DNA from: Rhizobium sp. BK602
Lineage (GTDB): Bacteria > Pseudomonadota > Alphaproteobacteria > Rhizobiales > Rhizobiaceae
Assembly (NCBI RefSeq): GCF_014195095.1
Contig: NZ_JACIBC010000005.1
Coordinates: forward strand, 124,001-188,000
Length of the DNA: 64,000 nt
Reading direction: 5' to 3'
Part shown: positions 5,356-63,798 of the stretch, one piece after another
Position numbering within the stretch: the stretch's first letter is position 1
Layout: every line of letters begins with the position of its first letter
The notes under the pieces: model-generated
Seen by the model: only the letters and a program-made list of their open reading frames with translations
Database searches by the model: none
What the model was told of the DNA's origin: nothing
Translations under genes and position numbers: made by a program

Positions 5356-6179
5356 GCGAGCTCAGGATCGACAAGATCTGGAAGGAATATGGCGACCAGA
5401 TCGTGCTCGAAGACGTGTCGCTGACGGTCGCCTCCCGTGCCTTCGTCGCCCTGGTCGGCCCCTCCGGCTGCGGCAAGTCGACTTTCCTGCGCATGCTGCT
5501 GGGACAGGAACAGCCGACCCGCGGCACGATCTTTCTCGATGGCGCCGCATTACCTTCCGAACCGGGAGCGGACCGTGGCGTGGTCTTCCAACGCTATTCG
5601 GTCTTTCCGCATCTGACCGCGCTCGGCAACGTGCTGCTCGGCAAGGAACTCTCGGCCTCGCGCTACAAGGCCAAGCTCTTCGGCGCCGCGCGCCGCAACG
5701 CGATCGACGAGGCGCATCAGCTCATCGCCGAGGTCGGCCTTGCCGGCGCCGAGGACAAGTATCCGGCCCAGCTTTCCGGCGGCATGCAGCAGCGTCTGGC
5801 GTTGGCGCAGGCACTCATCATGCGGCCCAAGGTGCTGCTGCTCGACGAACCATTCGGCGCGCTTGATCCCGGCATCCGCGCCGAGATCCACACGCTCATG
5901 AAACGGCTGTGGCATGAAACGCAGATGACCGTCGTCATGGTGACCCATGACATGCGCGAAGCATTCACGCTCGCCACCCGCGTCGTCGCCTTCGAGCGCC
6001 GCCGCGACCGGCCGGAAGAGAAAGAGCGCTACGGCGCGACCATCACCAAGGACATTTCCATCTGGCCGCCGCGCATCGCCGGCACGCCATCGATCTTCAG
6101 CCCCGACCGGGACGGCCCGGTCCTTTCCCCGGGGCACCGCCGGGACGACCTGGCTTCGTCGGGAGAAATCCAGCCATGA
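5352..6179 (+). CDS. ABC transporter ATP-binding protein (guanidine/urea importer)
   Basis: A 275-residue importer ATPase. Walker A is GPSGCGKST, the signature loop LSGGMQQRLALAQA, Walker B VLLLDEPFGALD and the switch His VMVTHD. The C-terminal extension after the fold (FERRRDRPEEKERYGATITKD) is usual for the copies attached to urea/guanidine carboxylase operons. It overlaps the permease upstream and the next gene downstream (ATGA at 6176-6179), so importer and catabolic enzymes are made together. Confidence 0.9.
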   Translation: MSELRIDKIWKEYGDQIVLEDVSLTVASRAFVALVGPSGCGKSTFLRMLLGQEQPTRGTIFLDGAALPSEPGADRGVVFQRYSVFPHLTALGNVLLGKELSASRYKAKLFGAARRNAIDEAHQLIAEVGLAGAEDKYPAQLSGGMQQRLALAQALIMRPKVLLLDEPFGALDPGIRAEIHTLMKRLWHETQMTVVMVTHDMREAFTLATRVVAFERRRDRPEEKERYGATITKDISIWPPRIAGTPSIFSPDRDGPVLSPGHRRDDLASSGEIQP

Positions 6180-6994
6180 CACATGTCAGACGTTCGCCGG
6201 AAGACATAGCCGCCAACCGCGCGCGCTATGAGGAGCATCAAAGGAAGGGCCTGGAATTCGCGCCCAAGGCCCTGCCCGGAGCAAGCCCGCTACCGGCACC
6301 CGAAATCGCGGCTGACAGGATCGTCCACCGCGAAGTCATTCCGGGCGGCTGGTACTGGTCGACCCATATCAAAAGGAACGAAACGTTCCGCGTCAGCCTC
6401 GATCATGGCTTCTCGACGGTCTCCCTTGTCGCCTGGAGCGCTGCCGACACCAGCGAGCGGCTGAACCTGCCCGATACCGTGAAGATGCAGTGGACCACCG
6501 CGCTCGGCAAAGGCCGGGTGATCTTCTCCGACATGGGCCGGGTGATGTTTTCGGTGACGGAAGATAGCTCGGGCGCCCATGATGGCCTCATGGGCGGCTC
6601 CACCTTTGCGTCGAACGCGGCGAAATACGGGGAAGGCAAGCGCAACACCCGCGACAACCTGATCCTGCTTGCGACCAAGGCTGGGCTCGACAAACGCGAT
6701 ATCCCTTCTGTGTTGGCCCTCTTTGCCCCTGTCCGCGTCGACCGGGACGGCGCGTTCCAGTGGAAGCCGGGACTGCTGCGCGGCGGCGATTATGTCGAGC
6801 TGCGCGCCGAGATGGACATGATCGTCGGCTTTTCCAACTGCCCGCATCCGCTCGATCCAGCCCCCGTTTACCAGCCAAACCCGGTGACCGTCACCCGCAT
6901 CGCGACGGCAGAGCCACCGGCCGACGACCTTTGCCGGACCGCGACCGCCGAGGCCATGCGCGGTTTTGAAAACAACATACTGGCGACGAGCTGA
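6176..6994 (+). CDS. cgdA: Carboxyguanidine deiminase subunit A (urea carboxylase-associated protein 1)
   Basis: A 272-residue DUF1989-family protein, long annotated as 'urea amidolyase associated protein 1'. Biochemical work on riboswitch-linked homologues showed that the two DUF1989 proteins together convert carboxyguanidine to allophanate and ammonia. Features seen: WYWSTHIKRNETFRVS, the block DSSGAHDGLMGGSTF and the C-terminal YVELRAEMDMIVGFSNCPHP shared with its partner. Where the partner has DSCGRHD plus a Cys cluster, this subunit has DSSGAHD and no Cys cluster, so the two are probably not equivalent. Function is assigned by family and operon. Confidence 0.85.
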   Translation: MTHVRRSPEDIAANRARYEEHQRKGLEFAPKALPGASPLPAPEIAADRIVHREVIPGGWYWSTHIKRNETFRVSLDHGFSTVSLVAWSAADTSERLNLPDTVKMQWTTALGKGRVIFSDMGRVMFSVTEDSSGAHDGLMGGSTFASNAAKYGEGKRNTRDNLILLATKAGLDKRDIPSVLALFAPVRVDRDGAFQWKPGLLRGGDYVELRAEMDMIVGFSNCPHPLDPAPVYQPNPVTVTRIATAEPPADDLCRTATAEAMRGFENNILATS

Positions 6995-7008
6995 GGAGGA
7001 GCGAGACC

Positions 7009-7659
7009 ATGAGCGATTTCATCCAGACAGCGCCGGGCCGCACGCTCGAAAACGCCGTGCAGGATCATTTCATCCCGGCCGAAGCGCCGTTTTCGACGGT
7101 GGTCCGGAAAGGCCAAACGTTGCGCATCGAGGACAGCTATGGCCAGCAGGCGATCGACACGCTGTTCTACAATGCCACGGATTTTTCCGAGCGCTATTCC
7201 AACCAGGATACGATGCGCGAACAGGGCGCGGCCTATATCTCCACGGATACGAAGATCATCTCCAATGAAGGCCGGGTGATGCTGACGATGACGGCCGACA
7301 GCTGCGGCCGTCACGATACCTCGGCCGGCGCCTGCTCCTGCGAGAGCAACACGGTGCGCTTCGGCCACGGCACCAAGTATCTCCATGCCTGCCGCGACAA
7401 TTTCGTCCTCGAAGTCTCCAAGCACGGCATGAGCAAGCGCGATGTCGTGCCCAATATCAATTTCTTCATGAACGTGCCGATCGAGCCGAGCGGCGAGATG
7501 ACGATCGTCGACGGGATCTCCGCACCGGGCGACTATGTCGAGCTGAAGGCGGAGATGGACGTGCTGCTCGTCATCTCCAATTGCCCGCAGATCAACAATC
7601 CCTGCAACGGTTTCGATCCGACACCGATCCGGGTGCTGGTCTGGGACAGCGAGGCCTGA
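7009..7659 (+). CDS. cgdB: Carboxyguanidine deiminase subunit B (urea carboxylase-associated protein 2)
   Basis: A 216-residue DUF1989 paralogue of the preceding gene, 14 bp after it with GAGGAGGAGCGAG as ribosome site. It keeps a cysteine-rich stretch DSCGRHDTSAGACSCESN and the tail YVELKAEMDVLLVISNCPQ. The Cys/His residues could bind metal. With subunit A it is expected to deiminate carboxyguanidine to allophanate. Its stop is one base before the carboxylase start. The pairing of both subunits with riboswitch and carboxylase is the hallmark of guanidine use as opposed to plain urea use. Confidence 0.86.
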   Translation: MSDFIQTAPGRTLENAVQDHFIPAEAPFSTVVRKGQTLRIEDSYGQQAIDTLFYNATDFSERYSNQDTMREQGAAYISTDTKIISNEGRVMLTMTADSCGRHDTSAGACSCESNTVRFGHGTKYLHACRDNFVLEVSKHGMSKRDVVPNINFFMNVPIEPSGEMTIVDGISAPGDYVELKAEMDVLLVISNCPQINNPCNGFDPTPIRVLVWDSEA

Positions 7660-50713: not shown

Positions 50714-51133
50714 TCAGCCTTGCCAGGGATCGACGACGACCACGCCGGTGCCCTCGAAATCCCTGATATTGCGCGTCACGACGACCATATCGTGGACCAA
50801 AGCGGTCGCGGCAATCAGCGCGTCGGCCTCATTGCGTCGGTCTGGGATGTGCAGGTGGGCGCAGCGGGTCGCAACTGCGTCGTCAACGGGCAGGATACGG
50901 TCGGCGAATTCCGGGCGCACATGACTATCGAGCCAGGAGCGCAACCGGGCGCCCTGTGCGGCGTCCCGCCGCTGCACCCCGAGCACGCCCCGCTCCAATT
51001 CAAGAATCGTGATGGCCGACATGAAGAAGCGCGCTGCATCTTCGGCTCCGATCCACGCTATCACATTGGCATCGGCCTTGCCGTCACCGATCTTGCGCAG
51101 CTCGGAAACGACGTTGGTGTCCAGCAGATACAT
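50714..51133 (-). CDS. VapC/FitB-type PIN-domain toxin
   Basis: A 139-residue PIN ribonuclease. Acidic active site: Asp6 (LLDTNVVSE), Glu near 46 (ITILELERG), Asp near 102 (RNEADALIAAT) and Asp near 120 (TRNIRDFEG). ATG 51133 shares its A with the antitoxin stop (TGATG), so they are translationally coupled in the usual antitoxin-toxin order. All four catalytic acids are present, so the toxin should be active. Confidence 0.9.
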   Translation of the reverse strand: MYLLDTNVVSELRKIGDGKADANVIAWIGAEDAARFFMSAITILELERGVLGVQRRDAAQGARLRSWLDSHVRPEFADRILPVDDAVATRCAHLHIPDRRNEADALIAATALVHDMVVVTRNIRDFEGTGVVVVDPWQG

Positions 51134-51387
51134 CAAGACAAATCCACTTCACGCGGCTTGATGTCAACGCGCTGTGGCTCGAAATCGATTGCCGAGAGGC
51201 CAGGCATGGCGAGAGCGTCGATCAGGCTGCGGCGTTTGCCGCTCAAGCGTTCGAATTCATCATAGGTCATGAGAACATGGGAAGGCCTGCCGCGATCCGT
51301 AATGATAACCGGACCGCTGTTCGCTGCCTTCTTGGCGCGGCTGACGTCATGGTTCAGCTCGCGGCTGGATAGGGTCGTGATGCTCAT
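51133..51387 (-). CDS. Phd/YefM-type antitoxin
   Basis: An 84-residue antitoxin. N-terminal Phd fold (SSRELNHDVSRAKKAANSGPV, ITDRGRPSHVLMTYDEFERL) binds DNA; the tail (RRSLIDALAMPGLSAIDFEP) neutralises the toxin. An 18-bp perfect palindrome lies 13 bp upstream of its start. Confidence 0.9.
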   Translation of the reverse strand: MSITTLSSRELNHDVSRAKKAANSGPVIITDRGRPSHVLMTYDEFERLSGKRRSLIDALAMPGLSAIDFEPQRVDIKPREVDLS

Positions 51388-51519: not shown

Positions 51520-53373
51520 CTAATCGATTTCCTCGGGAATAAAGCCGCCGGTCTGGCGCTTCCAGAGACGGGCGAACAGCCCATCCTGCTCGACCAGTTC
51601 ATCCGGCCTGCCTTCCTCCAGGATACGCCCCTGATCGAGCACGATGATGCGGTCCATGCTGGCAATGGTCGAGAGGCGGTGTGCGATGGCAATCACCGTC
51701 TTTCCCTCCATCACCACATTGAGCTTTTCCTGGATGGCGGCCTCGGATTCGCTGTCGAGCGCGGAGGTTGCCTCGTCCAGAACCAGGATCGGCGCATCCT
51801 TCAAAAGGACGCGCGCTATCGCAACACGCTGCCGCTGGCCGCCGGAGAGCTTGATGCCACGGTCGCCGACGAAAGCCTCATAGCCCTTGCGGCCCTCGCC
51901 ATCGGCGAGGTCGGCGATGAAGGCATCGGCCTTTGCGGTTTTCGCAGCCTGCTCGATCTCGCCCTGCGTTGCTTCCGGCCGGCCGTAGCGGATATTGTCG
52001 CCCACCGAACGGTGCAGCAGCGCGACATCCTGCGCGATGACCCCGATATTGCGGCGAAGGCTTGCCTGCGTGACCGCGCGAAGATCCTGCCCGTCGATCC
52101 GGATCGCACCCTCGCCTATGTCATAGAAGCGCAGCAGCAGGCTCACCAGCGTGGTCTTGCCGGCACCGGAGAGGCCGACCAGCCCCACCTTTTCGCCGGG
52201 CCGCACCGTCAGCGACAGCTTGTCGATGACAGGCTTGCCGGATTTATAGGCGAACCGGACATTGTCGAAACGGATTTCGCCGCTCGTAACCATCAGGTCG
52301 GTCGCATCCGGCCGGTCGACGATGGTCGGCGGCGTCGTCATGACGGGCATGGCGTCCTTGATGGTGCCGATCGCCTGGAAGATCTGCTGGCCCATCTGCA
52401 GGAAGACGAAGATCTGCGTCGACAGCCTGTTGAGGATGTAGACCGCGCCAACGAACTCTCCGACCGTGAGGAAACCCTTGACGAGGCCGGAAAATCCGAT
52501 CGACAGCATGGTCAGCCATAGCAGCGTGTTCAACACCACGACCGTCACTTCCGACGAGCGATAGATGCGCTGTTCGTTGTGCTGCGTCTGCACGGCCTTC
52601 TCGATGGTGCGGCGGATTGCGCCGGCCTCGCTGTCTTCGGCCGCGAACTGCTTGATCATCTGCATATTGGTATAGAGATCGGTGATGGCGCCGGCGACGA
52701 GGCTGCGCTGTTTGGCGGTACGGCGCGAGCGTTCGACAAAGATCGGCACGATCCTGACGGTGAACGCCACGTTGAGCGCGACCCAGACGACGACAGGCAC
52801 GGCAAGTTGCCAGGCCAGAGCGCTCAGTAATATTACGGAGCCCACCAACTGCATCAGAAAACGCGGGATGGACTGGAAGGCGGCGAGGATCTGTTGCTGA
52901 ACGGCGGAGGAGACCTGTTGCAGCCGCGAGGAAACCTGACCGGCAAAAAGATCATGAAAGAAGGCGAGATCCTGCCGCTCCACCGCCTTGTGGCCCTGCC
53001 ACTGGATGGCGGCCGGCATGCCGATACCGAGCGTATGCGACATAAGCGTGTTGAGCAGGAACGAGGCGATCGGCATGATCGGAAAGATCAGCAGGCCGAG
53101 AAAAGTCAGCAGCGGCCACTTGCTCTCCAGAAAGACGGAAGCGCCCTGTTGCGTGACGCCATCGACGATGACCGAAAGCCCCCAGACGATCGTCAGATTG
53201 ATCACCTCCATCGCCATGGAGCAAAGGGCAAGCGTAATCAGCACACCGCGAAACATCGAGATGAAGTGCAGAAGGACCGCAACAGGGCCCTTGGAGGGCA
53301 ACGGCCGGTAGGGGATGTCGAGCGGCCGGATCAGCGTCTCGAAGGGACGGTAGATCATATCTGAAATCGACAT
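51520..53373 (-). CDS. ABC exporter, fused permease and ATPase
   Basis: A 617-residue half-transporter. The membrane domain (about residues 30-350, six segments) begins LLHFISMFRGVLITLALCSMA. ATPase: Walker A GLSGAGKTTL, Q-loop NIGVIAQDVALL, signature LSGGQRQRVAIARVL, Walker B ILVLDEATSALD, H-loop IAHRLSTIAS. It resembles Atm1/MsbA-type exporters. ATG 53373 starts the conserved part. It is divergent from the siderophore receptor and could export the siderophore, but an MFS exporter in the siderophore operon is the more direct candidate. Confidence 0.85.
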   Translation of the reverse strand: MSISDMIYRPFETLIRPLDIPYRPLPSKGPVAVLLHFISMFRGVLITLALCSMAMEVINLTIVWGLSVIVDGVTQQGASVFLESKWPLLTFLGLLIFPIMPIASFLLNTLMSHTLGIGMPAAIQWQGHKAVERQDLAFFHDLFAGQVSSRLQQVSSAVQQQILAAFQSIPRFLMQLVGSVILLSALAWQLAVPVVVWVALNVAFTVRIVPIFVERSRRTAKQRSLVAGAITDLYTNMQMIKQFAAEDSEAGAIRRTIEKAVQTQHNEQRIYRSSEVTVVVLNTLLWLTMLSIGFSGLVKGFLTVGEFVGAVYILNRLSTQIFVFLQMGQQIFQAIGTIKDAMPVMTTPPTIVDRPDATDLMVTSGEIRFDNVRFAYKSGKPVIDKLSLTVRPGEKVGLVGLSGAGKTTLVSLLLRFYDIGEGAIRIDGQDLRAVTQASLRRNIGVIAQDVALLHRSVGDNIRYGRPEATQGEIEQAAKTAKADAFIADLADGEGRKGYEAFVGDRGIKLSGGQRQRVAIARVLLKDAPILVLDEATSALDSESEAAIQEKLNVVMEGKTVIAIAHRLSTIASMDRIIVLDQGRILEEGRPDELVEQDGLFARLWKRQTGGFIPEEID

Positions 53374-53734
53374 GGGCCGCTCGGGTCGAAAATCGGGAGA
53401 AGGACACGGAGACTCAGCTGGACAGGCTGCATAGGACCATCTTCCGGCTGCAATCTCAATTGGAGAATATTGGCAGCCCTTCCGAAAAGGGAAGATCTCA
53501 TCGGAACCGGCTCCGATATCGAAGGCGGCGGCGGCCGAACGGAGCATAGCCGAATAGTTCCGAACATCCGCTATACGTCTGATATCACTAATATTAATTC
53601 ACTTCATCGTTATGGGTACGAGCCCGTTTTCCCATCCCATTTATCTTGACTCAATCCATCATGTTATATAGCTCCCTATTGCCGCGTGTGGGGATCAAAA
53701 ACTCGCGTCCGCAGCGAATTTAAGGGGGCAAAGT
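53374..53734. other. Divergent promoter region, exporter / siderophore receptor
   Basis: 361 bp without a gene, AT-rich from 53570 to 53700. It contains a candidate iron-responsive box (listed next) and a TGATATCA palindrome near 53578. Promoters for the receptor are expected here. Confidence 0.55.
53647..53661. promoter_or_regulatory. Candidate RirA iron-responsive (IRO) box
   Basis: TGACTCAATCCATCA fits TGA-N9-TCA, the core of the rhizobial RirA box, 74 bp before the TonB receptor. The pattern is short and common, so position is the main support. Confidence 0.45.
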
Positions 53735-55867
53735 GTGAATAAGCGTATTGGACTTCTGTCTGCGCTGCTGGCGGGAGTGTGCACTCCTGCGATGGCGCAG
53801 AATGCAACCGAGTTGCAACCCATCGTCGTCAAGGCATCGGAAAACCCGACTGCCCTGCCGGAGGAATATCCGGGCGGGCAGATTGCGAAGGGCGGCCGCG
53901 TCGGGATGCTCGGCAACCGTGACGTGATGGATACACCCTTCAGCACGACGAGCTACACGGCCAAGATGATCGAGGACAAGGGGGCAAGCACCATCGCCGA
54001 CGTGGTTGCGAGCGATCCCTCCGTCAGGAACACCCATGCCTCCGGCGGCATGCTCGACTCCTTCTATATTCGTGGCTTCCCCGTCAATGAAGGTAATTTC
54101 GGGGAAGTGGCCTTCGACGGTATCTATGGCATCGCGCCGACCTATCGCGTCTTCACCGATTATGTCGAACGGGTCGAAGTGCTCAAGGGTCCGAGCGCCC
54201 TGCTTTACGGCATTTCGCCGAACAGCAGCGTCGGCGGGGCGATCAATATCGTGCCCAAACGCGCCCCGGACGAAGATCTGACGCGGGTGACCACCGAGTA
54301 TACCTCCGACCTGCAGGGCGGCACGCATCTCGATTTCGCCCGCCGTTTCGGCGAAGAACGGCAGTTCGGCATGCGCTTCAATGGCAGCCTGCAGGGCGGA
54401 AACACTCCGATCGACGATCAGACCCAGGAAGCCTATGTCGGCTCGCTCGGCCTTGACTATCAGGGGGAAAACTTCCGCGCGAGCCTCGACGTCATCGGTC
54501 AGAAGCAGCATTTCGAAGCGCCGCAGCGCCCCTTCTTTCCCGTGGCGGGGATCAGTCTTCCCGACGCGCCCGACGGCCGGCTGAATATCCAGGAGCCCTG
54601 GGAGTGGTCGACGAGCCGGGATCTGTCCTGGCTCAGCCGCGCCGAATATGACGTCAGCGATTCCGTTACGATCTTCGGCGCGGTCGGCGGCGGCAATTCG
54701 CATGTGGCTCGACTGTTCGGCACGCCAACCCTTCTGAACTCGAACGGCGATGTCAGCGTTACGCCGCAGAACTTCGTGTTCGACGTCGACAGGACGACGG
54801 CGGAAACCGGTGTGCGCGCGAAGTTCGACACCGGGCCGGTCTCGCACTCCGTCACGCTGCAAGCCAGCTATTTGCGGCAGACATTGGATCGTGGATCCAA
54901 TTCGGGCACGGCGCAACGCACCAACATCTACGATCCGGTGCTACGCCCCGAGCAGAACGTTCCGGCGCCGCGAAACGTGGGACGAGCCTCGAAAAGCGAC
55001 CTCTCCGGCGTTGCCTTGTCCGATACGCTCTCGATTCTCGACGAGCGCATCCAGCTGACGGTCGGCGGCCGCTGGCAGTCGATCGACTCGAAGAATTACT
55101 CCGCAACGACGGGCGCGGTCACCTCGTCGTCCGATGAGACGGCCGTCACCCCGCTCGTCGGTCTCGTGGTCAAGCCATGGGAAAACGTATCGCTCTACGC
55201 CAACTATATCGAGGGCCTGAGTGTCGGCGATACGGCGCCCGCCACCGCGGTCAACGCCGGCGAAACACTGGCGCCCTATCGGACCAAGCAATATGAAATC
55301 GGCGCGAAATTCGACCTCGGTCGGGTCATGCTGAGCGCTGCGCTCTTCCAGATCGAAAAGCCGTTCGGACAGCTTGAAAGCCAGGGCTCCAGTCTGGTCT
55401 TCGTGAAGGGCGGCGAGCAGCGCAATCGCGGCCTCGAGATCAATGTCGCCGGCGAGGTCACCTCGGATCTGCGGCTGCTGGGTGGGGTAACCCTCATCGA
55501 CGGCGAACTTACCAAGACCAACAGTGCCGCAACCGTCGGCAACAGGCCGATCGGCGTTCCCACCATCCAGGCCAATCTCGGCGCCGAATGGGACACGCCC
55601 TTCGTGGAGGGCCTGACGCTGGCCGCGAACGTCATCTTCACGGACGAACAATTCGCTGACACCGCCAACAAGCAGGAGCTTCCGTCCTGGACGAGGCTCG
55701 ATCTCGGGGCGCGCTATGCGACCAAGATCCAGGATCGGCCGGTGACCTTCCGCGCGTCCGTCGAGAACGTCTTCAACACCGATTACTGGTCGGGCGTTGC
55801 AAGCTTCGGCACGATTTCGCAGGGTGCGCCCCTGACCGTCAAGGTGTCGATGACCACCGATTTCTAA
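53735..55867 (+). CDS. TonB-dependent siderophore receptor
   Basis: A 710-residue outer-membrane receptor starting at GTG. Signal peptide MNKRIGLLSALLAGVCTPAM, cleaved at AQN. TonB box-like ELQPIVVKA, plug domain with IADVVASDPSVRN, FYIRGFPVNEG and VEVLKGPSALLYG, then a 22-strand barrel ending in Phe. The plug's SxFxIRGF block is typical of hydroxamate/carboxylate siderophore receptors. It should import the ferric form of the siderophore made by the opposite-strand operon. Confidence 0.92.
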   Translation: MNKRIGLLSALLAGVCTPAMAQNATELQPIVVKASENPTALPEEYPGGQIAKGGRVGMLGNRDVMDTPFSTTSYTAKMIEDKGASTIADVVASDPSVRNTHASGGMLDSFYIRGFPVNEGNFGEVAFDGIYGIAPTYRVFTDYVERVEVLKGPSALLYGISPNSSVGGAINIVPKRAPDEDLTRVTTEYTSDLQGGTHLDFARRFGEERQFGMRFNGSLQGGNTPIDDQTQEAYVGSLGLDYQGENFRASLDVIGQKQHFEAPQRPFFPVAGISLPDAPDGRLNIQEPWEWSTSRDLSWLSRAEYDVSDSVTIFGAVGGGNSHVARLFGTPTLLNSNGDVSVTPQNFVFDVDRTTAETGVRAKFDTGPVSHSVTLQASYLRQTLDRGSNSGTAQRTNIYDPVLRPEQNVPAPRNVGRASKSDLSGVALSDTLSILDERIQLTVGGRWQSIDSKNYSATTGAVTSSSDETAVTPLVGLVVKPWENVSLYANYIEGLSVGDTAPATAVNAGETLAPYRTKQYEIGAKFDLGRVMLSAALFQIEKPFGQLESQGSSLVFVKGGEQRNRGLEINVAGEVTSDLRLLGGVTLIDGELTKTNSAATVGNRPIGVPTIQANLGAEWDTPFVEGLTLAANVIFTDEQFADTANKQELPSWTRLDLGARYATKIQDRPVTFRASVENVFNTDYWSGVASFGTISQGAPLTVKVSMTTDF

Positions 55868-56021: not shown

Positions 56022-57179
56022 TTAAGGCGCCTTTGCCGTCAGGCTGACGCTATAGCCCGGCTTGTAGGCGATCGGCAGGAAACGCCGGTGATATTCCGCG
56101 AAGGTCGCATCGGGGTCGAGATCGGCGAAGAGATCGGGGTGGAACCATTTCGCCAGCTGCTGAATGGCCACGAACTCATAGGGGCTATTGTAGAACTGGT
56201 GCCAGATACCGTGGAAACTGCGCGTCTTCTGGGCTTGCGTCCCGGCATAGGCATTCCGCGTCAGATACCATTCCAGCTTTTGCCGCAGGATCGCGGGATC
56301 GGCGCCGGGGCCGAGCGGAATCCAGTGGCCGCCGGGAGCATAAGCCTGCCAGTCGGAACTGGTGACGACCACATGCTGCGGGTCGGAAACAATGACCTGC
56401 TCCGGATTGAGCTGACCGAAGGTCGTCGGGATGATGTCGCTGCCGATATTGTGGCCACCCGCCACCTCGACATATCTGCCGAAGTTTTCCGCGCCAAAGG
56501 TCAGGCAGCAATCGTCCGAGTAGCCGCCGATACGCTCGACGAAAACGCGCGGGCGGTCGGGCTTCGCCTTGTCGAGCACGTCCGTGACGCGTGCGACCGC
56601 CTGCCGGCGGAAGGCGATGATCTCCTCGGCGCGTTCCTTGCGATCCATGATTTCCCCGAGCAGGCGAATGGTCCGCTCCGTGTTTTCCAGCGGATGGTGC
56701 CGGAAATCGACGTAGAGCACCGGGATACCCAGGGAGGCGAGCTTGTCGACATATCTGGCATCCTCATTGGCACGCATCGCCTCGATGTTGAGGAGCACCA
56801 CATCGGGTTTGCGAATGATAGCCGACTCGATGTCTATCAGGCTGCCCTCCTGCCCCGAAAAGGTCGGCAGTTTCGCAAGGTCGGGAAAAGCCTCCAGATA
56901 TTGCGCATAGGTTCCCGGATCGGCCTGGATGAGGTCATTGCGCCAGGCGACGATACGCGACAGCGGATCCTTGGGCTCCAGCGAGGCGATCAGATACAGT
57001 TGCCGGCCTTCGCCGAGCAGGATGCGCTTGACCGGCGCATTGATCGTCACCGTGCGATTGGCGACGTCGGTCACGGTGATCGGAGACTGTCCTTCCTGCG
57101 CCATGGCCGGGGCGTGCCAAAACATGAGCATCGCCAGCACCGCCATTACAGCCTGATATATCGAGCACCGTCTTCTCAC
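56022..57179 (-). CDS. Ferric-siderophore ABC transporter substrate-binding protein
   Basis: A 385-residue periplasmic protein of the FepB/BtuF class. Signal peptide ends APAMAQ near residue 28. [22 protein letters not shown] is the typical start of the fold; [14 protein letters not shown] and [11 protein letters not shown] are the family lobes. It is the last gene of the siderophore operon, overlapping the exporter gene by four bases. No cognate permease or ATPase is in the window. Confidence 0.85.
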
Positions 57180-58405
57180 GAATAAACCTCTTCTTCGAAT
57201 GTCCTGCGCGACTTAAGCCATAGAGCCAGCGCAAGGAAAAGCGACAATGTGTAAAGGATCGCAACCAACGGAAATGCGGCTTCCAGACCGAGCAGCTGGG
57301 TCGCGCCGACACCGGCGGCGATGCCGGCGATGGACGCCACCTGCTGGCAAGTCTGGGCAAGGCCGAGAACGGAGCCTTGCCGGTCCGTCGGCGTCGAGGC
57401 TGATATCTGCGCGAGCAGCATGGGGGTGGTGCCGCCCAGGAGCGCGCCCCAGAGCAGGTACATGACGGCGAACAGAACGATCGATGTCGTCAGGCCCGCC
57501 AGCGTCGACACCAGGGCGCAGCCCGCTGATATTGCGATCATCCAGCCGAGAACCATCGTCCTCGGACTGCCTTTCAACAGCCTGGCCCAGAGCGGCGCGC
57601 CGATCACGAAACCGAGGGCGAGCAGTCCGTAGCTCAAGCCTGCCATCCAGTGACGGGCGCCGAAGACCTGCGTCATGTACAGGGAGAACGGCACCTGCAG
57701 CACCATGCGGCTGGCAAGCAGCAGACCGATCAGCCAGAGGAGCCCGGTGACCGAGGGATCCTTGGCAGGTACGGATTTCTGGGTTTGCGCCTGGGCGGCA
57801 GCAGAGGGCGCCGCCCGGCTGGACGGCACGGGAAGCGTTGCCCAGGCGACGATCGCGCATAGCGCACAGACGGCCCCGGCCGTGAGATTGATGTCCGAAA
57901 AAGAAGCGGCGTCCAGGATAAGGCCGCCGAAGAACGCACCGCCGAGCGAGCCGACATTGGTCGCGACCTGCAGCCAGGCGAACAGCCCTGCCCGGTCACG
58001 ACCGCCGGTGATCTCCACGCCATAGGCCTGCGCCGGCGCGATATAGCCGGCGAAGGCGCCCTGCAGGAAGCGCAGAGCGAGGATGGTCCAGACGTCCTGC
58101 GCGAAGGCGACGAACAGTTGCGTGACGGCAAGCCCGGCAAGTGCGCGCACCATCATCAGCCGGTTGCCATAGCGATCGCCCATCCGGCCCCAAAAGGCGC
58201 TGGTAAGCGAGATGCCGATCATCGGGCAGACATAGACGCCGATGCTGGCAAGGGAAAAGACGCTCTCCGAGGTGCTGAGCGTCTCGATCTGAATCGGCCA
58301 GAACGGGCCGCTCATCTCCATGGCGCCCATGGAGATGAACTGCAATCCGAACAGAAGCAGGAAGACGGGTCCGAAACTGCGGACGACGGCGGCGGCTTGC
58401 TTCAT
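57176..58405 (-). CDS. MFS transporter, probable siderophore exporter
   Basis: A 409-residue protein with about 12 segments; motif [18 protein letters not shown] and [15 protein letters not shown] near the start. Within the operon it sits between the synthetase and the binding protein, the place SbnD-type exporters hold in carboxylate siderophore clusters. Export of the finished siderophore is inferred from context. Overlaps both neighbours by four bases. Confidence 0.87.
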
Positions 58406-60279
58406 TGCGTTGCCGCCAACGGGTTGTCGAGGCCATGCTCGACCCGGTAGTCGCGATACCGCTCGAGATGCATCCGCAACACCGAGCGCGTCGGCCAGGG
58501 CTTTTCAAGAAAGGCCTGCCGCTCCTCCACCCAGAAAGCATCGGAGAGCATTCGTGGCCTCAGGGCCTCGAAAGCCGCCTCCGTTTCCTCGTGCAGGATC
58601 CGCCAGGGATTGTCGAGCCCGCAATGCTCGGCAAGGCACAGGGCCAGCTCGTGAAGATGGCAGACGAAGCAGGCATCAATCACGAAGGAGCGCACGAGGC
58701 TGATGTCGTCGTTGAAGGTCGTCGGCAGGATACCCTTGCGGCTGAACGGCGCGAGCCGATAGCCACGCTCCTCGAAAAGCGGCGCGAAACTGCGCCCGTC
58801 GCCGAAGTCACGAATGAGCAGCTTTTGCGGATTGCCCGAGACGTCGAAGAGGATCGTGCTGTTCTGCTGGTGCGCCTCGAAGGCGATGCCGTAAAGCAGA
58901 TACATGGCAAGCGCCGGCCGAACGACCGTGCGGGCATAGGCCCTGAAGAAGACGGCCGCCTTCTCCTCTTCGGCCGCCGGAATGCGGTCGATCAACTCGC
59001 AGACAAGCGGCCGATGCGCCAGCGGGCTTTCGGCGAGAAGCGACGCAACCGTCACGGGGATAAGGCCGTCCTTGCGGGCCAGCGCATTCACCTCGCGATA
59101 GACGACCGACAGGAACCGGCCGGGATGCTCGTCGCCGGTCTCGGGATCGTGCAGGATCGCGCCAAGCTCCTCCGTGAAAATCTCGAGGGACGCCTTGAGC
59201 TCATCTTCCTTCGCGAGGATATCGCTGATCAAGGTGCTGAGACGCGGCCCCATGTGGATCGATTTCGCCTGCAAGGTCCTCTGCTCGCTGGTCATCCAGA
59301 TGGCGACCGGCAGCTTGATGAACGGCTGCGGCTCCTGGGTATCCGGCAGCATGGTGCGGAAGGACATGGCGGGAAGCGTGACGATATCCGGACCCTCTAC
59401 ATCGAGAATGTCCGAGGCGATCAGGGAGGCGAACTCGCGACGAACGAAGTTTTCCAGATGCCATGCATGGATCGGCAAGGGAAGCCAGTCGCCCGCCTCC
59501 TTCCCCCGACCGCGAAGGCCGTCGCTCCACTGTTCCCACAGGTCCGGATAGGCATTCGCGAACCATTCGGAATAGTCGGCGACATGCGGCATCGTCTCGA
59601 CATAGGCCCAATCCCTGCGCAAGGCGGCGATCCGCAGCGGGACGCGGGCGCCGAACTCCGGCGAAAGAGCGCTGATTTCCGCCGCAGACAATCCCGGCTT
59701 GGCCTTCCAGGTGGGATAGAAGGGATGCCCCTCCAGCGAACCCCATTGGTCGAGCGTCATCGCCGTCAGATGCGTCGGCAGGCTTTTTTCGAGGTGGTCG
59801 ATGAAGCCGGTCGCGCCAGTCGCCGCTATCGATTGGCGCAGCTCGTCGCTCCACCTCTCGCGATGCCCACGCGCCAGCACGTCGTTTTTCATGCTGTCTT
59901 CGATATCCCGCAAGAGAACCTCGAAACCGTCGGATGCGGCCGAGACGTCAAGGACGGGAGCGATCTCCTTGAGGAGAGCGGCGGGATCGTCCAGCCTGCG
60001 GCGCACGCCGCCGTCCTCGATCACCTCGATGGCGCCACGATTGAGCAAGGTGTCGGCCGGCGCCCGCCTGAGGCTGGTGAAATGCAGGACCCGGCGTGTC
60101 GCCCAAAGCGGCAACCAGGCCTGTTCGCCGTTTTCCGCCCATAGCAGGGCCTTGGCGTCGAGCATTTTTTCGGCAAAGGCGCAGCGAACCAGACGCCGGA
60201 TCGCATTCCGCGCGGCGGCCTCCCAAAGCCGCTTTTCGGCCGAGATGTCCTGGCTTCTTTCAAAAATGATTTCGGTCAT
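58402..60279 (-). CDS. IucA/IucC-family NRPS-independent siderophore synthetase
   Basis: A 625-residue ATP-dependent synthetase. [16 protein letters not shown] is the HP..K ATP-binding block of the family, [13 protein letters not shown] the second, then [19 protein letters not shown] and [11 protein letters not shown]. Such enzymes join citrate or another carboxylate to an amine. With SbnA-like and SbnH-like partners the amine may be diaminopropionate or its decarboxylation product ethylenediamine, as in staphyloferrin B. Type A, B or C cannot be decided by eye. Confidence 0.9.
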
Positions 60280-61418
60280 CAGGCAACCCCCGGCCAGTTG
60301 GTGGGAATATGGGCATGCGAGGGCTGCGGCAATGCGCCGTGATACTCCCGCGCCCAGGAATAGGTTTTCGCAATCGCCGGGATCGGGACGCGCAGCCGGG
60401 AGGCCACCTCGACGAGGAGTGCGAGCCCGAAGGCGATATCCTCGTGAAAGGCTCTGCTGTCGCGATCGATCAGGTAGCCGGCGCCGTGGGGATTGGCTAT
60501 GAGCGGCGCCTGGATTCCGGCATAGGCGCGATTGGTGCGCAGCAGGGAATACATGGTGCGGTCATCCTCGATCTGATCGCCATAGGCTTCGATAAGCTCC
60601 TGGCGCAACGGCTTGACCGAACTCAGGTCGATGTCGAGGCGCTCCTGCGCCGCATTGCGGATCGCCTGGTTTTCGGCATCGCAGGCTTCCAGCAACTCTG
60701 CTCCTTCGCGCGGGCAATCGCTCCACCAGCATATTGGCGTTTCGAACGGCTTGTCGCGCCATGGTGCATCGGGACCGAGAAGGCCATACAGCACGGCTGG
60801 ATGCATGAGCGCGTTGCCTGGCGTCAAGGTGATCTCGAGATAGTTGTCGAGCATGGTTACTGGTGCTTCGAAGAGCTGTCCGAGGAAGCCGCCGAGCCTG
60901 TCGCGGTCGACGGCGCTTTCACGCGCATGCAAGGCGGCAAACAGCTCCGCCTTTGCGCCGCCCATGCGGACCTGCTTGCCGGCGACCAGCTCGAAAGCGG
61001 TATGCGGCACATCTTTCATGCCCCAGATCACCACATTCTCCCGCCCGGCAAATGCCCCCGCGGCCAGCCAGTCGAAGCCGCAGAAGCCGGGAATGGCGCC
61101 GACATAGACGGCCTTGCCACGCGGCAGATGCGGCGCAATCCTTGCCAGCAGTTCGGGGCGGACATGAGCCGGCTGCGTGACCACGACGATATCCGCATCT
61201 TCGAGAGCCCGGCCAGGGTCGGTGCCGACATAGTCGGGCCGTCCGGAGAGCACATGGCCCTCCGGAGTCAGCGCCTGCCACATACCGTCTCCGGCCGCCC
61301 ACTGCTCGGCCACGGAAGCGGAGCTCGTGAGCACGGAGACCACCGTCTCCGGCCGCTGCTTGAAGAGAACGGCGTTCAGATGGCCGGTGCGACCGGCCCC
61401 GCAGATCGTGACCTTCAT
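60279..61418 (-). CDS. Opine (octopine/nopaline) dehydrogenase-family enzyme
   Basis: A 379-residue NAD(P)-dependent dehydrogenase. Rossmann start MKVTICGAGRTGHLNAVLF; the C-terminal half shows the octopine-dehydrogenase fold (LDNYLEITLTPGNALMHPAVLYG, whose His and Asn are typical). ATG 61418 is fixed by ATGA overlap with the SbnA-like stop. In staphyloferrin B clusters this slot is filled by SbnB, of the unrelated ornithine cyclodeaminase fold, which oxidatively splits N-(1-amino-1-carboxyethyl)-glutamate. Opine dehydrogenases act on exactly that kind of secondary amine, so it may replace SbnB. That is inference. Confidence 0.8.
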   Translation of the reverse strand: MKVTICGAGRTGHLNAVLFKQRPETVVSVLTSSASVAEQWAAGDGMWQALTPEGHVLSGRPDYVGTDPGRALEDADIVVVTQPAHVRPELLARIAPHLPRGKAVYVGAIPGFCGFDWLAAGAFAGRENVVIWGMKDVPHTAFELVAGKQVRMGGAKAELFAALHARESAVDRDRLGGFLGQLFEAPVTMLDNYLEITLTPGNALMHPAVLYGLLGPDAPWRDKPFETPICWWSDCPREGAELLEACDAENQAIRNAAQERLDIDLSSVKPLRQELIEAYGDQIEDDRTMYSLLRTNRAYAGIQAPLIANPHGAGYLIDRDSRAFHEDIAFGLALLVEVASRLRVPIPAIAKTYSWAREYHGALPQPSHAHIPTNWPGVA

Positions 61419-62425
61419 GCCGCGCGCGCCCTGTTCGTCAGCCAGCTGTCGAGCTGGTCGGCGATCGAAGGATCGAGAAGGCTGCGCTTCTCCATCCACT
61501 CGTCGTCGAAGATGGAGCCGAGATATTTCTCGCCGCCGTCGGCGACGGTCGTCACCACATTGCCGCTGAGCTTGCCGGAGACGATGAATTCCAGTGCCTT
61601 GTAGATGGCGCCGCCCGTGGAGCCGCCGACCAGCAGCCCCTTGTGCCGGGCAATGTAACGGGCCGTTTCGAAAGCCTGGGTGTCGGTGACCTGCACACCT
61701 TCGTCGATGCAGGCATAGTCGAGAACCTTGCCGACCTCGTCGCCGGCAGGCGTTCCCGTTCCCGACTGGTAATAGGGATAGCCTGGCTTTCCGAAGACGA
61801 TCGATCCCGCGGGCTCGACGGCAATCGTCTTGATGCGGGCATCATGCCTCTTGAGGCGTTGGGAAATGCCGGTCATCGAGCCGCCGGTGCCCACGCAACC
61901 GACGAAGGCGTCAATGCCGTCAGGCAGTTGGGTCAAGAGTTCCTCGACGAAACCGGCATAGCCTTCGGGATTGGCAGGATTGTCGGACTGGTTCATGAAC
62001 AGCGCGCCCGGAAGCTGGGCGCCGAGCTGCGCGGCAAGGCGCTGGCGTTCGACCACGGCAACCTCATCCTCGCGATAGGTGCCCTCGACATAGCGGATCT
62101 CTGCCCCGAATGCGCGCATCGTGCGGATCTTGTCGGGAGCGGCGTGATGGTCGACCACGGCGATGAAACGCAGGCCGAATTCGAGAGCGGCGAGCGCGAG
62201 ACCGATGCCGGTATTGCCGGAGGAGGATTCGACGATCGTGCCGCCCGGCTTCAGGCGTCCGTCCGCCAGCGCGGCAACGACCATGCTGCGCGCCATGCGA
62301 TCCTTCATCGAGCCACCCGGATTGTTCTTCTCGATCTTCAGAAACAGGGTCGTGTCCCGTTCCGGCAGCTTGATCGACATCAGCGGCGTCTGGCCGATAA
62401 GCTGGGTTATCGTCGTGTAGGTCAT
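61415..62425 (-). CDS. SbnA-like PLP synthase for diaminopropionate precursor
   Basis: A 336-residue fold-type II PLP enzyme of the cysteine synthase family. PLP Lys41 in NNPGGSMKDR; phosphate loop SSSGNTGIG; GCVGTGGSMTGISQ. SbnA condenses O-phosphoserine with glutamate to N-(1-amino-1-carboxyethyl)-glutamate. The second-shell sequence fits SbnA better than CysK in NNPGGS and gene context; a real CysK role is unlikely inside this operon. Confidence 0.85.
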   Translation of the reverse strand: MTYTTITQLIGQTPLMSIKLPERDTTLFLKIEKNNPGGSMKDRMARSMVVAALADGRLKPGGTIVESSSGNTGIGLALAALEFGLRFIAVVDHHAAPDKIRTMRAFGAEIRYVEGTYREDEVAVVERQRLAAQLGAQLPGALFMNQSDNPANPEGYAGFVEELLTQLPDGIDAFVGCVGTGGSMTGISQRLKRHDARIKTIAVEPAGSIVFGKPGYPYYQSGTGTPAGDEVGKVLDYACIDEGVQVTDTQAFETARYIARHKGLLVGGSTGGAIYKALEFIVSGKLSGNVVTTVADGGEKYLGSIFDDEWMEKRSLLDPSIADQLDSWLTNRARAA

Positions 62426-63798
62426 AGATACATCTCCAAATCGTCGGTGGTGAGAAAAGGCGCGCCGCCGACAGCGTGATGCAGGCGGAAGCGCTTTGGC
62501 ATTGGGTGGCGATGGAATTCGTTTTCGAGCAGATCCATCTGGTAGCCGGCGGTATTGGCATAGACCAGGAGATCGCCGGCGCGGGGCGCGGTCGGAAAAT
62601 CCAGCCAGCGGTTGGTCAGCACGTCCTCGTCGAGGCAGCTATGGCCCGCAAGATAGGCCTTGAACGGCTGTGCGGCGGCCGGCATCGCGACTGCGGGAAC
62701 GACGATCGGATCCAGGAGGAACTCCGATGCGAACCAGGTCTCGCAGGCGCTGAAGCTGCTGCCTTCCACGAAGATGACGGCGGTGTCCGGTCCCAGTGTC
62801 TTGACGCGGATGATCCTGAAGACGGAGATGGCCGTCTGGTCGGCCAGGGCACGTCCGGGCTCGAGCGCGATCGCGAGTTTCTCGTCCCTGAAATAGTCGG
62901 CGATGCTTCGCCTGGCGTCCATCGGCGCGGCAAGGAGGCTTTGCAGCCAATCGGCGGCGGAAATGTCGCCGCCATAGGGATAGAAGGAAGACGGCAGCTT
63001 CCCGTTGCGATAGTCCGCCGCGCTCTGCCCCTCGATATGTTTCCGATAGGCGACCGTGTCGACATAACGGATCGGTAGCCCGCCGCCGATGTCGATCATT
63101 CTCGGAGCAAGGCCGATGGCGCGCGCCTCGCGGATCAGGCGCGAAGCCTCGCGAATGGCGGCGGCGCGCGTTTCCCAGCGATAACCGGAAAGATGGAAAT
63201 GCAGGCCGTCGAAGCGGAACCGCTTGTCGGCGGCGATGACGGACAGGCAGACCAACACCTGATCCGCATCCATGCCGAAACGGCTGCCCGCCTGATCGCT
63301 GGGACGCAGGCGCAACAGCACGGGCTGCGGCTCGCCATCATCCGGCAGGCGGTCCGACAGGTCCTCCAGCTCTTCCGGCGAATCGACGGAAATCAGCGCC
63401 CTGCAGGCAACGAGCGCGTCGTGAAAAGCTGGCGTCTTTGCCGGACCGGTCGCGACGATGCGCTCTCCGATGGCGCCGAGCGCCAGCGCGTCCCGCAGCT
63501 CATAGAAGCTGGAGACGTCGAGGCCGATCCCGGCTTCGAGCGCGGCGTGCATCAGGCCCGGCGACTTGTTGACCTTCACGCCATAATAGATCGTGTGATC
63601 GACGCCATTTTGCGCCAGCACCGCGGTCAATCCCCGCACATTCTCGCCGAGAGCCTCGGGGCTTACCAGATGCAGCGGGGAACCATGCGTCTCCACCCAT
63701 TCGAGCAGCAGCTTGCCATTCTGGCTAAGAAGATCGGTTGTTCCCGGCCTCAAAATGGGAGAGAGGCCGGCATCGGAATTCTGCCGATATAGCGTCAT
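62422..63798 (-). CDS. Fold-type III PLP decarboxylase (SbnH-like)
   Basis: A 458-residue decarboxylase of the DapDC/ornithine-decarboxylase family. PLP Lys75 in YYGVKVNK, HFHLSGYRW, GGGLPIRYVD, EPGRALADQT and the partner-site Cys in GHSCLDEDVL. SbnH decarboxylates a diaminopropionyl-citrate intermediate in staphyloferrin B synthesis. ATG 63798 overlaps the upstream stop (ATGA); the longer reading is rejected for that reason. Confidence 0.87.
   Translation of the reverse strand: MTLYRQNSDAGLSPILRPGTTDLLSQNGKLLLEWVETHGSPLHLVSPEALGENVRGLTAVLAQNGVDHTIYYGVKVNKSPGLMHAALEAGIGLDVSSFYELRDALALGAIGERIVATGPAKTPAFHDALVACRALISVDSPEELEDLSDRLPDDGEPQPVLLRLRPSDQAGSRFGMDADQVLVCLSVIAADKRFRFDGLHFHLSGYRWETRAAAIREASRLIREARAIGLAPRMIDIGGGLPIRYVDTVAYRKHIEGQSAADYRNGKLPSSFYPYGGDISAADWLQSLLAAPMDARRSIADYFRDEKLAIALEPGRALADQTAISVFRIIRVKTLGPDTAVIFVEGSSFSACETWFASEFLLDPIVVPAVAMPAAAQPFKAYLAGHSCLDEDVLTNRWLDFPTAPRAGDLLVYANTAGYQMDLLENEFHRHPMPKRFRLHHAVGGAPFLTTDDLEMYL

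Follow-up and report, generated by a model that had tools for sequence, protein, structure and literature searches.

What does an octopine/nopaline-dehydrogenase-family enzyme do in a siderophore operon? The question is raised by a 64,000-nucleotide stretch of Rhizobium sp. BK602 (contig NZ_JACIBC010000005.1, positions 124,001 to 188,000; hereafter the window), at whose right end the gene for such an enzyme lies in an operon with genes for an SbnA-like and an SbnH-like enzyme and an IucA/IucC-type (nonribosomal-peptide-synthetase-independent siderophore, NIS) synthetase. The operon lies entirely on the minus strand and runs in the order SbnI-like, SbnH-like, SbnA-like, octopine dehydrogenase, IucA/IucC, major facilitator superfamily (MFS) exporter and binding protein, neighbouring genes overlapping by 1–4 bases. 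Our preferred answer is that rhizobactin, or a molecule very close to it, is the product of the operon (probability about 0.82), and that the dehydrogenase probably builds part of the siderophore rather than standing in for an absent enzyme. The observations behind it are the gene content, the conservation of the operon, searches in which no SbnB was found, the catalytic residues, the only NIS locus of a proven producer and a mass balance.

The producer is Pseudomonas sp. FEN. According to an excerpt of PMC7676072, rhizobactin is composed of ethylenediamine, alanine, lysine and malate and was first obtained from Ensifer meliloti DM4; rhizobactin B has citramalate instead of malate; and FEN produces both, with published mass-to-charge ratios (m/z) of 378.1866 and 392.2020, respectively. 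The FEN genome carries the cluster (L081), with genes for an SbnI-like protein, a lyase, the SbnH-like and SbnA-like enzymes, the dehydrogenase, the NIS synthetase, an MFS exporter, a class-V aminotransferase, a sigma/FecR pair, a receptor and a binding protein. The NIS gene of this cluster is the only IucA/IucC gene found in the FEN draft genome. The four main enzymes of the window and of FEN are 51–70% identical, and the window receptor is 57% identical to the FEN cluster receptor, three other FEN matches reaching 29–32%. Each piece of rhizobactin (lysine, ethylenediamine, an N-carboxyethyl group and malate, with one amide) can be matched to an operon enzyme with a predicted substrate. Joining the published parts by the predicted reactions gives C15H27N3O8 and C16H29N3O8, with calculated m/z of 378.1871 and 392.2027; derived as it is from the published parts, this balance is a check on the proposed chemistry, not on the genes. 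The link to FEN is correlational, and presence of the dehydrogenase alone would be suggestive; what makes the link strong is the single NIS gene of FEN together with the lyase and an enzyme for every building block.

Conservation of the operon was assessed by scanning 84,980 species genomes with a dehydrogenase alignment, which gave 210 candidate stretches and 94 confirmed loci, of which the best 80 were kept. These loci were picked using cluster dehydrogenases as the query, so that co-occurrence within them is silent on other octopine dehydrogenases. To call components, phmmer was run at 1e-6 on open frames of at least 80 residues, mostly with window proteins as queries; a component not detected in a locus may be diverged, broken or past a contig end. 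All 80 loci have the SbnH-like, SbnA-like, dehydrogenase and NIS genes together, no more than 10 kb apart. The MFS gene was present in 79 (the exception, L048, lies at a contig end), the TonB-dependent receptor in 76, the SbnI-like gene in 74 and the binding-protein gene in 68. The pairwise distances of the individual components correlate with one another (r of 0.75–0.98), shared ancestry contributing to the correlation. The hosts include Rhizobium, Sinorhizobium, Bradyrhizobium, Bosea, Thalassospira, Paraburkholderia, Pectobacterium, Proteus, Providencia and Pseudomonas.

This co-travel bears on the reading in which the product is a cysteine- or opine-related metabolite, not a siderophore, and the NIS gene is a bystander. 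An excerpt of PMC3973906 reports Y4xP, the SbnA-like protein of Sinorhizobium fredii, as a cysteine synthase and the y4yA, y4yB and y4xP mutants as unaffected in Nop secretion, as such a reading would allow. Set against this are the company of synthetase, exporter, receptor and binding protein in the proportions given above and, in Proteus mirabilis, a related cluster (pbt) that is iron-repressed and whose loss together with nrp leaves a strain that fails in iron chelation (excerpt of PMC11026637). We give the bystander reading next to no credence.

The operon is patchily distributed among the relatives sampled: a strong dehydrogenase match (at least 70% identity) was found in three of 61, one of them the window genome itself, and weak matches only in three more. 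Three of 398 phylum genomes gave dehydrogenase matches, two of them already counted among these relatives. Dehydrogenase matches occur in 43 records of the plasmid collection, including four from S. meliloti (72% identity), two chromosome-sized Proteus records and one phosphonate-type outlier. Seven plasmid-record regions were examined in full, and six carry the cluster by annotation or open frames, the seventh being the outlier; S. meliloti USDA1021 was also examined, and the complete operon is present in one S. meliloti record examined (L012). The outlier, Rhizobium sp. 007 (L015), has a 39%-identical dehydrogenase that was rejected as a cluster member, since it sits in a phosphonate-type cluster; it lies outside the 80 loci, yet is counted among the 43 plasmid matches and among the 89 loci searched for SbnB below. 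Several individual loci show peculiarities of their own. The Serratia marcescens plasmid pE28_003 (L013) has IS903B at 6094–7062, between the receptor gene and the SbnH-like gene. A six-frame scan of L022, L024 and L089 (an Arsenophonus endosymbiont, Pectobacterium and Providencia stuartii) found the receptor split into several open pieces, and in Arsenophonus several further genes are also fragmented, suggesting decay or sequencing errors.

For the route itself we infer every substrate and the order of the steps. The SbnI/SerK-like kinase would provide O-phosphoserine, and the SbnA-like enzyme would exchange its phosphate for the alpha-amine of lysine (SbnA uses glutamate), giving N2-(2-amino-2-carboxyethyl)lysine. 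Decarboxylation by the SbnH-like enzyme would then create the ethylenediamine unit. Using NAD(P)H, the octopine-dehydrogenase-family enzyme would couple the free amine with pyruvate, forming the N-(1-carboxyethyl) or 'alanine' end, and the single NIS synthetase would form the sole amide by placing malate on the lysine side-chain amine; in clusters with a RipC-like lyase, citramalate would take the place of malate. Export would be by the MFS protein, and import by the TonB-dependent receptor and the binding protein.

The dehydrogenase scores 100.6 bits against PF02317 (cut-off 30), and the closest solved structure in a sequence search is octopine dehydrogenase of the scallop P. maximus (PDB entry 3c7a; 4.2e-31). 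Its predicted model has a mean predicted local distance difference test (pLDDT) score of 92.9 and the top PDB fold is again octopine dehydrogenase (Foldseek 2.9e-31 to 3iqd); the model shares 27% identity with 3iqd and 3c7a, compared with 12–14% for the enzymes of staphylopine, pseudopaline and yersinopine. His212, Arg324 and Asp329 of octopine dehydrogenase, which we take to be its catalytic residues, align with His206, Arg322 and Asp327 of the window enzyme, and these are invariant in 44 of 44 aligned dehydrogenase relatives. Pyruvate-dependent reductive N-carboxyethylation is the probable reaction. In staphylopine, pseudopaline and yersinopine a dehydrogenase makes an opine-type secondary amine within a metallophore; the window enzyme differs from these in being nearer to octopine dehydrogenase and in being accompanied by an NIS synthetase. 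As an alternative, the preliminary description had the enzyme contribute an opine-type group to a new metallophore. The opine group has strong support, but the metallophore is most likely not new: rhizobactin is the best candidate.

Against the SbnA model TIGR03945 the SbnA-like protein reaches 242 bits, under the cut-off of 350 (227.5 bits for its FEN counterpart), and by that model is SbnA-like and not SbnA. The positions of Arg132 and Tyr152 of SbnA were taken from structure 5d84; structure 5d86 holds a Phe variant at position 152. Both residues presumably matter for O-phosphoserine use and conformational change. The Arg132 position is Arg in 81 of 81 SbnA-like proteins and the Tyr152 position is Ser in all 81, a pattern that would fit a retained phosphoserine donor and an altered second substrate. 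The designation SbnH-like is similarly drawn from fold family and genomic context. Among the presumed functional residues of such a decarboxylase, the Lys of VKVN and the EPGR motif are each conserved in 81 of 81 proteins and the Cys of HSCLDED in 79 of 81, the other two having gaps. The SbnI-like protein matches NCBIfam SerK with 1.5e-8 (34 bits; cut-off 380) and the free serine kinase 5x0b in the PDB with 4.6e-4. Where 5x0j has Gln at a mutated position, Glu stands in 74 of 75 proteins, and the motif columns, the N/H position excepted, are kept in 73–75 of 75 for DG(N/H)HR and in 72–74 of 75 for KTTRH. From these sequence features the protein probably supplies O-phosphoserine.

SbnB was searched for at several levels. 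The gene next past the right edge of the window encodes a 145-residue SerK/ParB-like protein, not SbnB. A whole-genome profile search of the window genome with the SbnB family TIGR03944 gave nothing over the cut-off (best 131 bits versus 326.9), and the same held for all 27 cluster bearers searched (23 genomes, including the window's own, and four plasmid records), of which 23 have weaker relatives scoring at best 153.6 bits against that cut-off. With two true SbnB proteins as queries, no relatives were found within the fetched stretches of 89 loci (88 with the cluster and one outlier); each of the two queries finds the other, the control E-values referring to a two-sequence database. As a control among 299 phylum genomes, the two with a true SbnA are the same two that have a true SbnB, with the genes adjacent. 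An ornithine-cyclodeaminase-like gene of Thalassospira (L034/G458) was considered as an SbnB and rejected: it scores 153.6 bits versus 326.9 and is located some 10 kb downstream of the NIS gene, with other genes between it and the cluster, one of them, by eye, an opposite-strand catalase-peroxidase-like gene. These clusters thus appear to function without SbnB. The preliminary description was right that the window lacks SbnB, and the SbnB upstream in the same operon that it had named as a counter-finding was looked for past the right edge, genome-wide and in the 89 loci and was not found.

Its explanation of that absence fares less well. It had proposed a new diaminopropionate route in which the dehydrogenase replaces SbnB: in a staphyloferrin-B-like pathway the enzyme would oxidize the glutamate-linked product of SbnA to diaminopropionate and 2-oxoglutarate. 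SbnA-like, SbnH-like and NIS genes are indeed present without SbnB, and the octopine dehydrogenase class catalyses reversibly, the catalytic residues of this class being kept in the window enzyme. The staphyloferrin B (sbn) system of Staphylococcus aureus is also alike by homology in O-phosphoserine, SbnA-type and SbnH-type chemistry, an SbnI-like helper and NIS synthesis. It differs in having SbnB, diaminopropionate and three NIS synthetases, SbnC, SbnE and SbnF, whereas the window operon has one NIS gene, and a single IucA/IucC gene per genome was counted in 11 of 11 cluster genomes tested, those of the window and FEN included. The SbnA-like protein moreover falls under the SbnA cut-off with the Tyr152 position altered throughout, the same gene set occurs in a proven producer of a diaminopropionate-free siderophore, whose molecule it fits, and no enzyme would remain to make the N-carboxyethyl group of rhizobactin. 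Replacement of SbnB is therefore most improbable, and it was rejected as the leading explanation on the family search, NIS count, residue comparison and producer genome.

A closer competitor to rhizobactin is a product built on the same type of scaffold that differs between Rhizobiales and Pseudomonas, carrying another hydroxy acid (e.g. citrate), keto acid or amino acid. The lyase is relevant here. The FEN cluster HpcH/HpaI lyase has RipC as its top NCBIfam match (4.4e-47; 160.8 bits, under the cut-off of 375). RipC is named for itaconate degradation and acts on citramalyl-CoA, and a RipC-like lyase would presumably supply citramalate, matching rhizobactin B. Lyase relatives were found in 33 of 80 loci, namely 21 of 21 Pseudomonas, 11 of 12 Enterobacterales and one Bosea, hence in one of 47 loci outside Pseudomonas and Enterobacterales, so that the acyl part may vary. 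The identity of 51–70% between the main enzymes of the window and FEN leaves room for such a difference, as does the NIS protein, whose top NCBIfam match is the rhizoferrin synthetase FslA, under its cut-off; FslA uses citrate. On the other side, the S. meliloti plasmid dehydrogenases are 72% identical to that of the window, the receptor is conserved and rhizobactin itself came from a rhizobium, E. meliloti DM4 (excerpt of PMC7676072). A different product of this type is possible but doubtful. A further gene of the FEN cluster, encoding the class-V aminotransferase/cysteine-desulfurase-like protein (L081, 13852–15516), occurs in 23 of the 80 loci (19 of 21 Pseudomonas, two Arsenophonus, one Paraburkholderia and one Ralstonia) and also in the Serratia locus L013.

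Two gene clusters described elsewhere resemble the operon. The first is that of proteobactin (pbt, PMI0229–0239) in Proteus mirabilis, which has an NIS synthetase, a TonB receptor, a decarboxylase, a PLP (pyridoxal phosphate) enzyme, an octopine/opine dehydrogenase, an MFS protein, a binding protein and a small hypothetical protein. It also has an ATP-binding cassette (ABC) import pair and an opposite-strand citrate-lyase-beta-like gene. All these gene types were seen in L014 and L020, and the four main enzymes of L020 are 44–67% identical to those of the window. It differs from the window in gene order and in the presence of the lyase. The operon type fits the pbt cluster, an equation made by species and gene types, strain HI4320 itself lying outside the comparison. 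A 2024 review lists pbt with a product predicted only as a hydroxy-carboxylate, no structure being given in the excerpt of it (PMC11026637). Locus L014 (NZ_OL790811.1) is a 4.08-Mb Proteus mirabilis record filed as a plasmid; from its size and the glycolytic genes flanking the cluster, it appears to be chromosomal.

The second is y4yB-y4yA-y4xP-y4xO-y4xN-y4xM of S. fredii, which has the gene order of the window and 58–86% identity and lies between nopX and nopL in the type III secretion locus (pNGR234a, L016, 6189–13234). The receptor and binding protein were not found within the stretch of pNGR234a fetched; NGR234 has a second dehydrogenase copy on NC_012586.1. In an excerpt of PMC3973906 the y4 cluster is called a curious group of enigmatic role, with flavonoid-dependent expression of y4xP, and part of an expression table for NGR234 gives the y4 genes beside nopX similarly strong ratios (PMC10970691). 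We hold it moderately probable that y4 and pbt form one operon family that encodes the rhizobactin pathway, in which lysine has taken the place of glutamate as the nucleophile of an SbnA-type enzyme, an octopine dehydrogenase finishes a chelating arm and the presence or absence of the RipC-like lyase decides between rhizobactin B and rhizobactin.

Several points weigh against the assignment to rhizobactin. The substrates were predicted from the building blocks, not from active sites. Of 297 other genomes sampled from the genus of FEN, 17 also have the dehydrogenase, which puts its presence in FEN by chance at about 6%. The SbnI-like protein is short and under all family cut-offs. The surroundings of the window cluster yielded no RipC-like lyase, so that malate, citrate or another hydroxy acid could be used there. 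Rhizobactin 1021 is a siderophore unrelated to rhizobactin, made by the rhb genes; its pathway has two IucA/IucC synthetases, RhbC and RhbF, and one only was found in the window genome and in FEN. An rhbAB-like origin of the FEN siderophore is unlikely because the genome has one NIS gene compared with those two. It is to rhbAB-like genes that the FEN authors attribute their siderophore, as far as an excerpt of PMC7676072 goes. PbtA and Y4xN are classed as type B synthetases, with oxaloacetate, an acid other than malate or citramalate, proposed as the likely substrate, in an excerpt of the review cited above (PMC11026637). Finally, Y4xP of S. fredii is reported as a cysteine synthase, and USDA191 lacking it nodulated one soybean cultivar better (both Lorio 2006, per an excerpt of PMC3973906).

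The coordinates of the features are collected in Table 1. The dehydrogenase, SbnA-like, SbnH-like and IucA/IucC genes given in the preliminary description, and the overlap of the first two (4 bases), were borne out by the open reading frames and by Pfam. The SbnH-like frame has an ATG start at 63798, and a longer GTG reading extends to 63849. The top NCBIfam match of the MFS exporter is the rhizoferrin exporter FslB (2e-39, under cut-off).

Table 1. Siderophore genes of the window (positions in window coordinates).
Feature	Position	Strand	Support
SbnI/SerK-like free serine kinase, 145 residues	63795..64000, continues to window-equivalent 64232 (L004:12796-13233)	-	NCBIfam SerK, PDB
SbnH-like (Y4yA family) PLP decarboxylase	62422..63798	-	Pfam Orn_Arg_deC_N 1.3e-25
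SbnA-like (Y4xP family) beta-substituting PLP enzyme	61415..62425	-	Pfam PALP 6.5e-67
Octopine/nopaline dehydrogenase-family enzyme (Y4xO family)	60279..61418	-	Pfam Octopine_DH 1.1e-28
IucA/IucC (NIS) siderophore synthetase (Y4xN family)	58402..60279	-	IucA_IucC 2.3e-45, FhuF 2.9e-31
MFS exporter (Y4xM family)	57176..58405	-	MFS_1 4.1e-45
Periplasmic ferric-siderophore binding protein	56022..57179	-	Peripla_BP_2 2.1e-9
TonB-dependent siderophore receptor	53735..55867	+	TIGR01783 365 bits, cut-off 223.5 exceeded

Beyond the receptor, an MsbA-like ABC exporter gene lies divergently at 51520–53547; near other clusters it has weak matches only (best 199 bits, in L067). An open reading frame at 50714–51136 on the minus strand resembles, by eye, a PIN-domain (VapC-type) toxin. 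An IRO-box-like TGA-N9-TCA at 53647 is a single match whose chance level was not assessed, and it was not used as evidence.

No gene assignment for rhizobactin was found in the open-licence literature; a subscription paper could already hold one. Within the same literature no link between rhizobactin and an opine enzyme was found, including in excerpts of PMC3323832, PMC7438024, PMC9694258, PMC6950998 and PMC12815270, nor any paper naming rhizobactin with octopine, or an opine dehydrogenase with an NIS synthetase, nor, among the seven papers listed, any co-mention of rhizobactin and proteobactin. Rhizobactin and opine occur as words in two papers, in one of them unconnected; the other is PMC8467928. 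The gene assignment for an orphan siderophore and the common identity of two orphan operons, y4 and pbt, are probable, with substrates and step order that we infer from the building blocks. If the assignment is true, a siderophore known since the mid-1980s acquires its genes, the structure class of proteobactin is predicted, the presence of the enigmatic y4 genes within the type III secretion locus of S. fredii is explained and the published guess of an rhb-like origin for rhizobactin B is corrected. The assignment would also add a pathway logic for genome mining, namely SbnA-type coupling to lysine combined with an opine dehydrogenase and one NIS step, and rhizobia such as S. fredii would express a siderophore alongside their injection system under plant signals.

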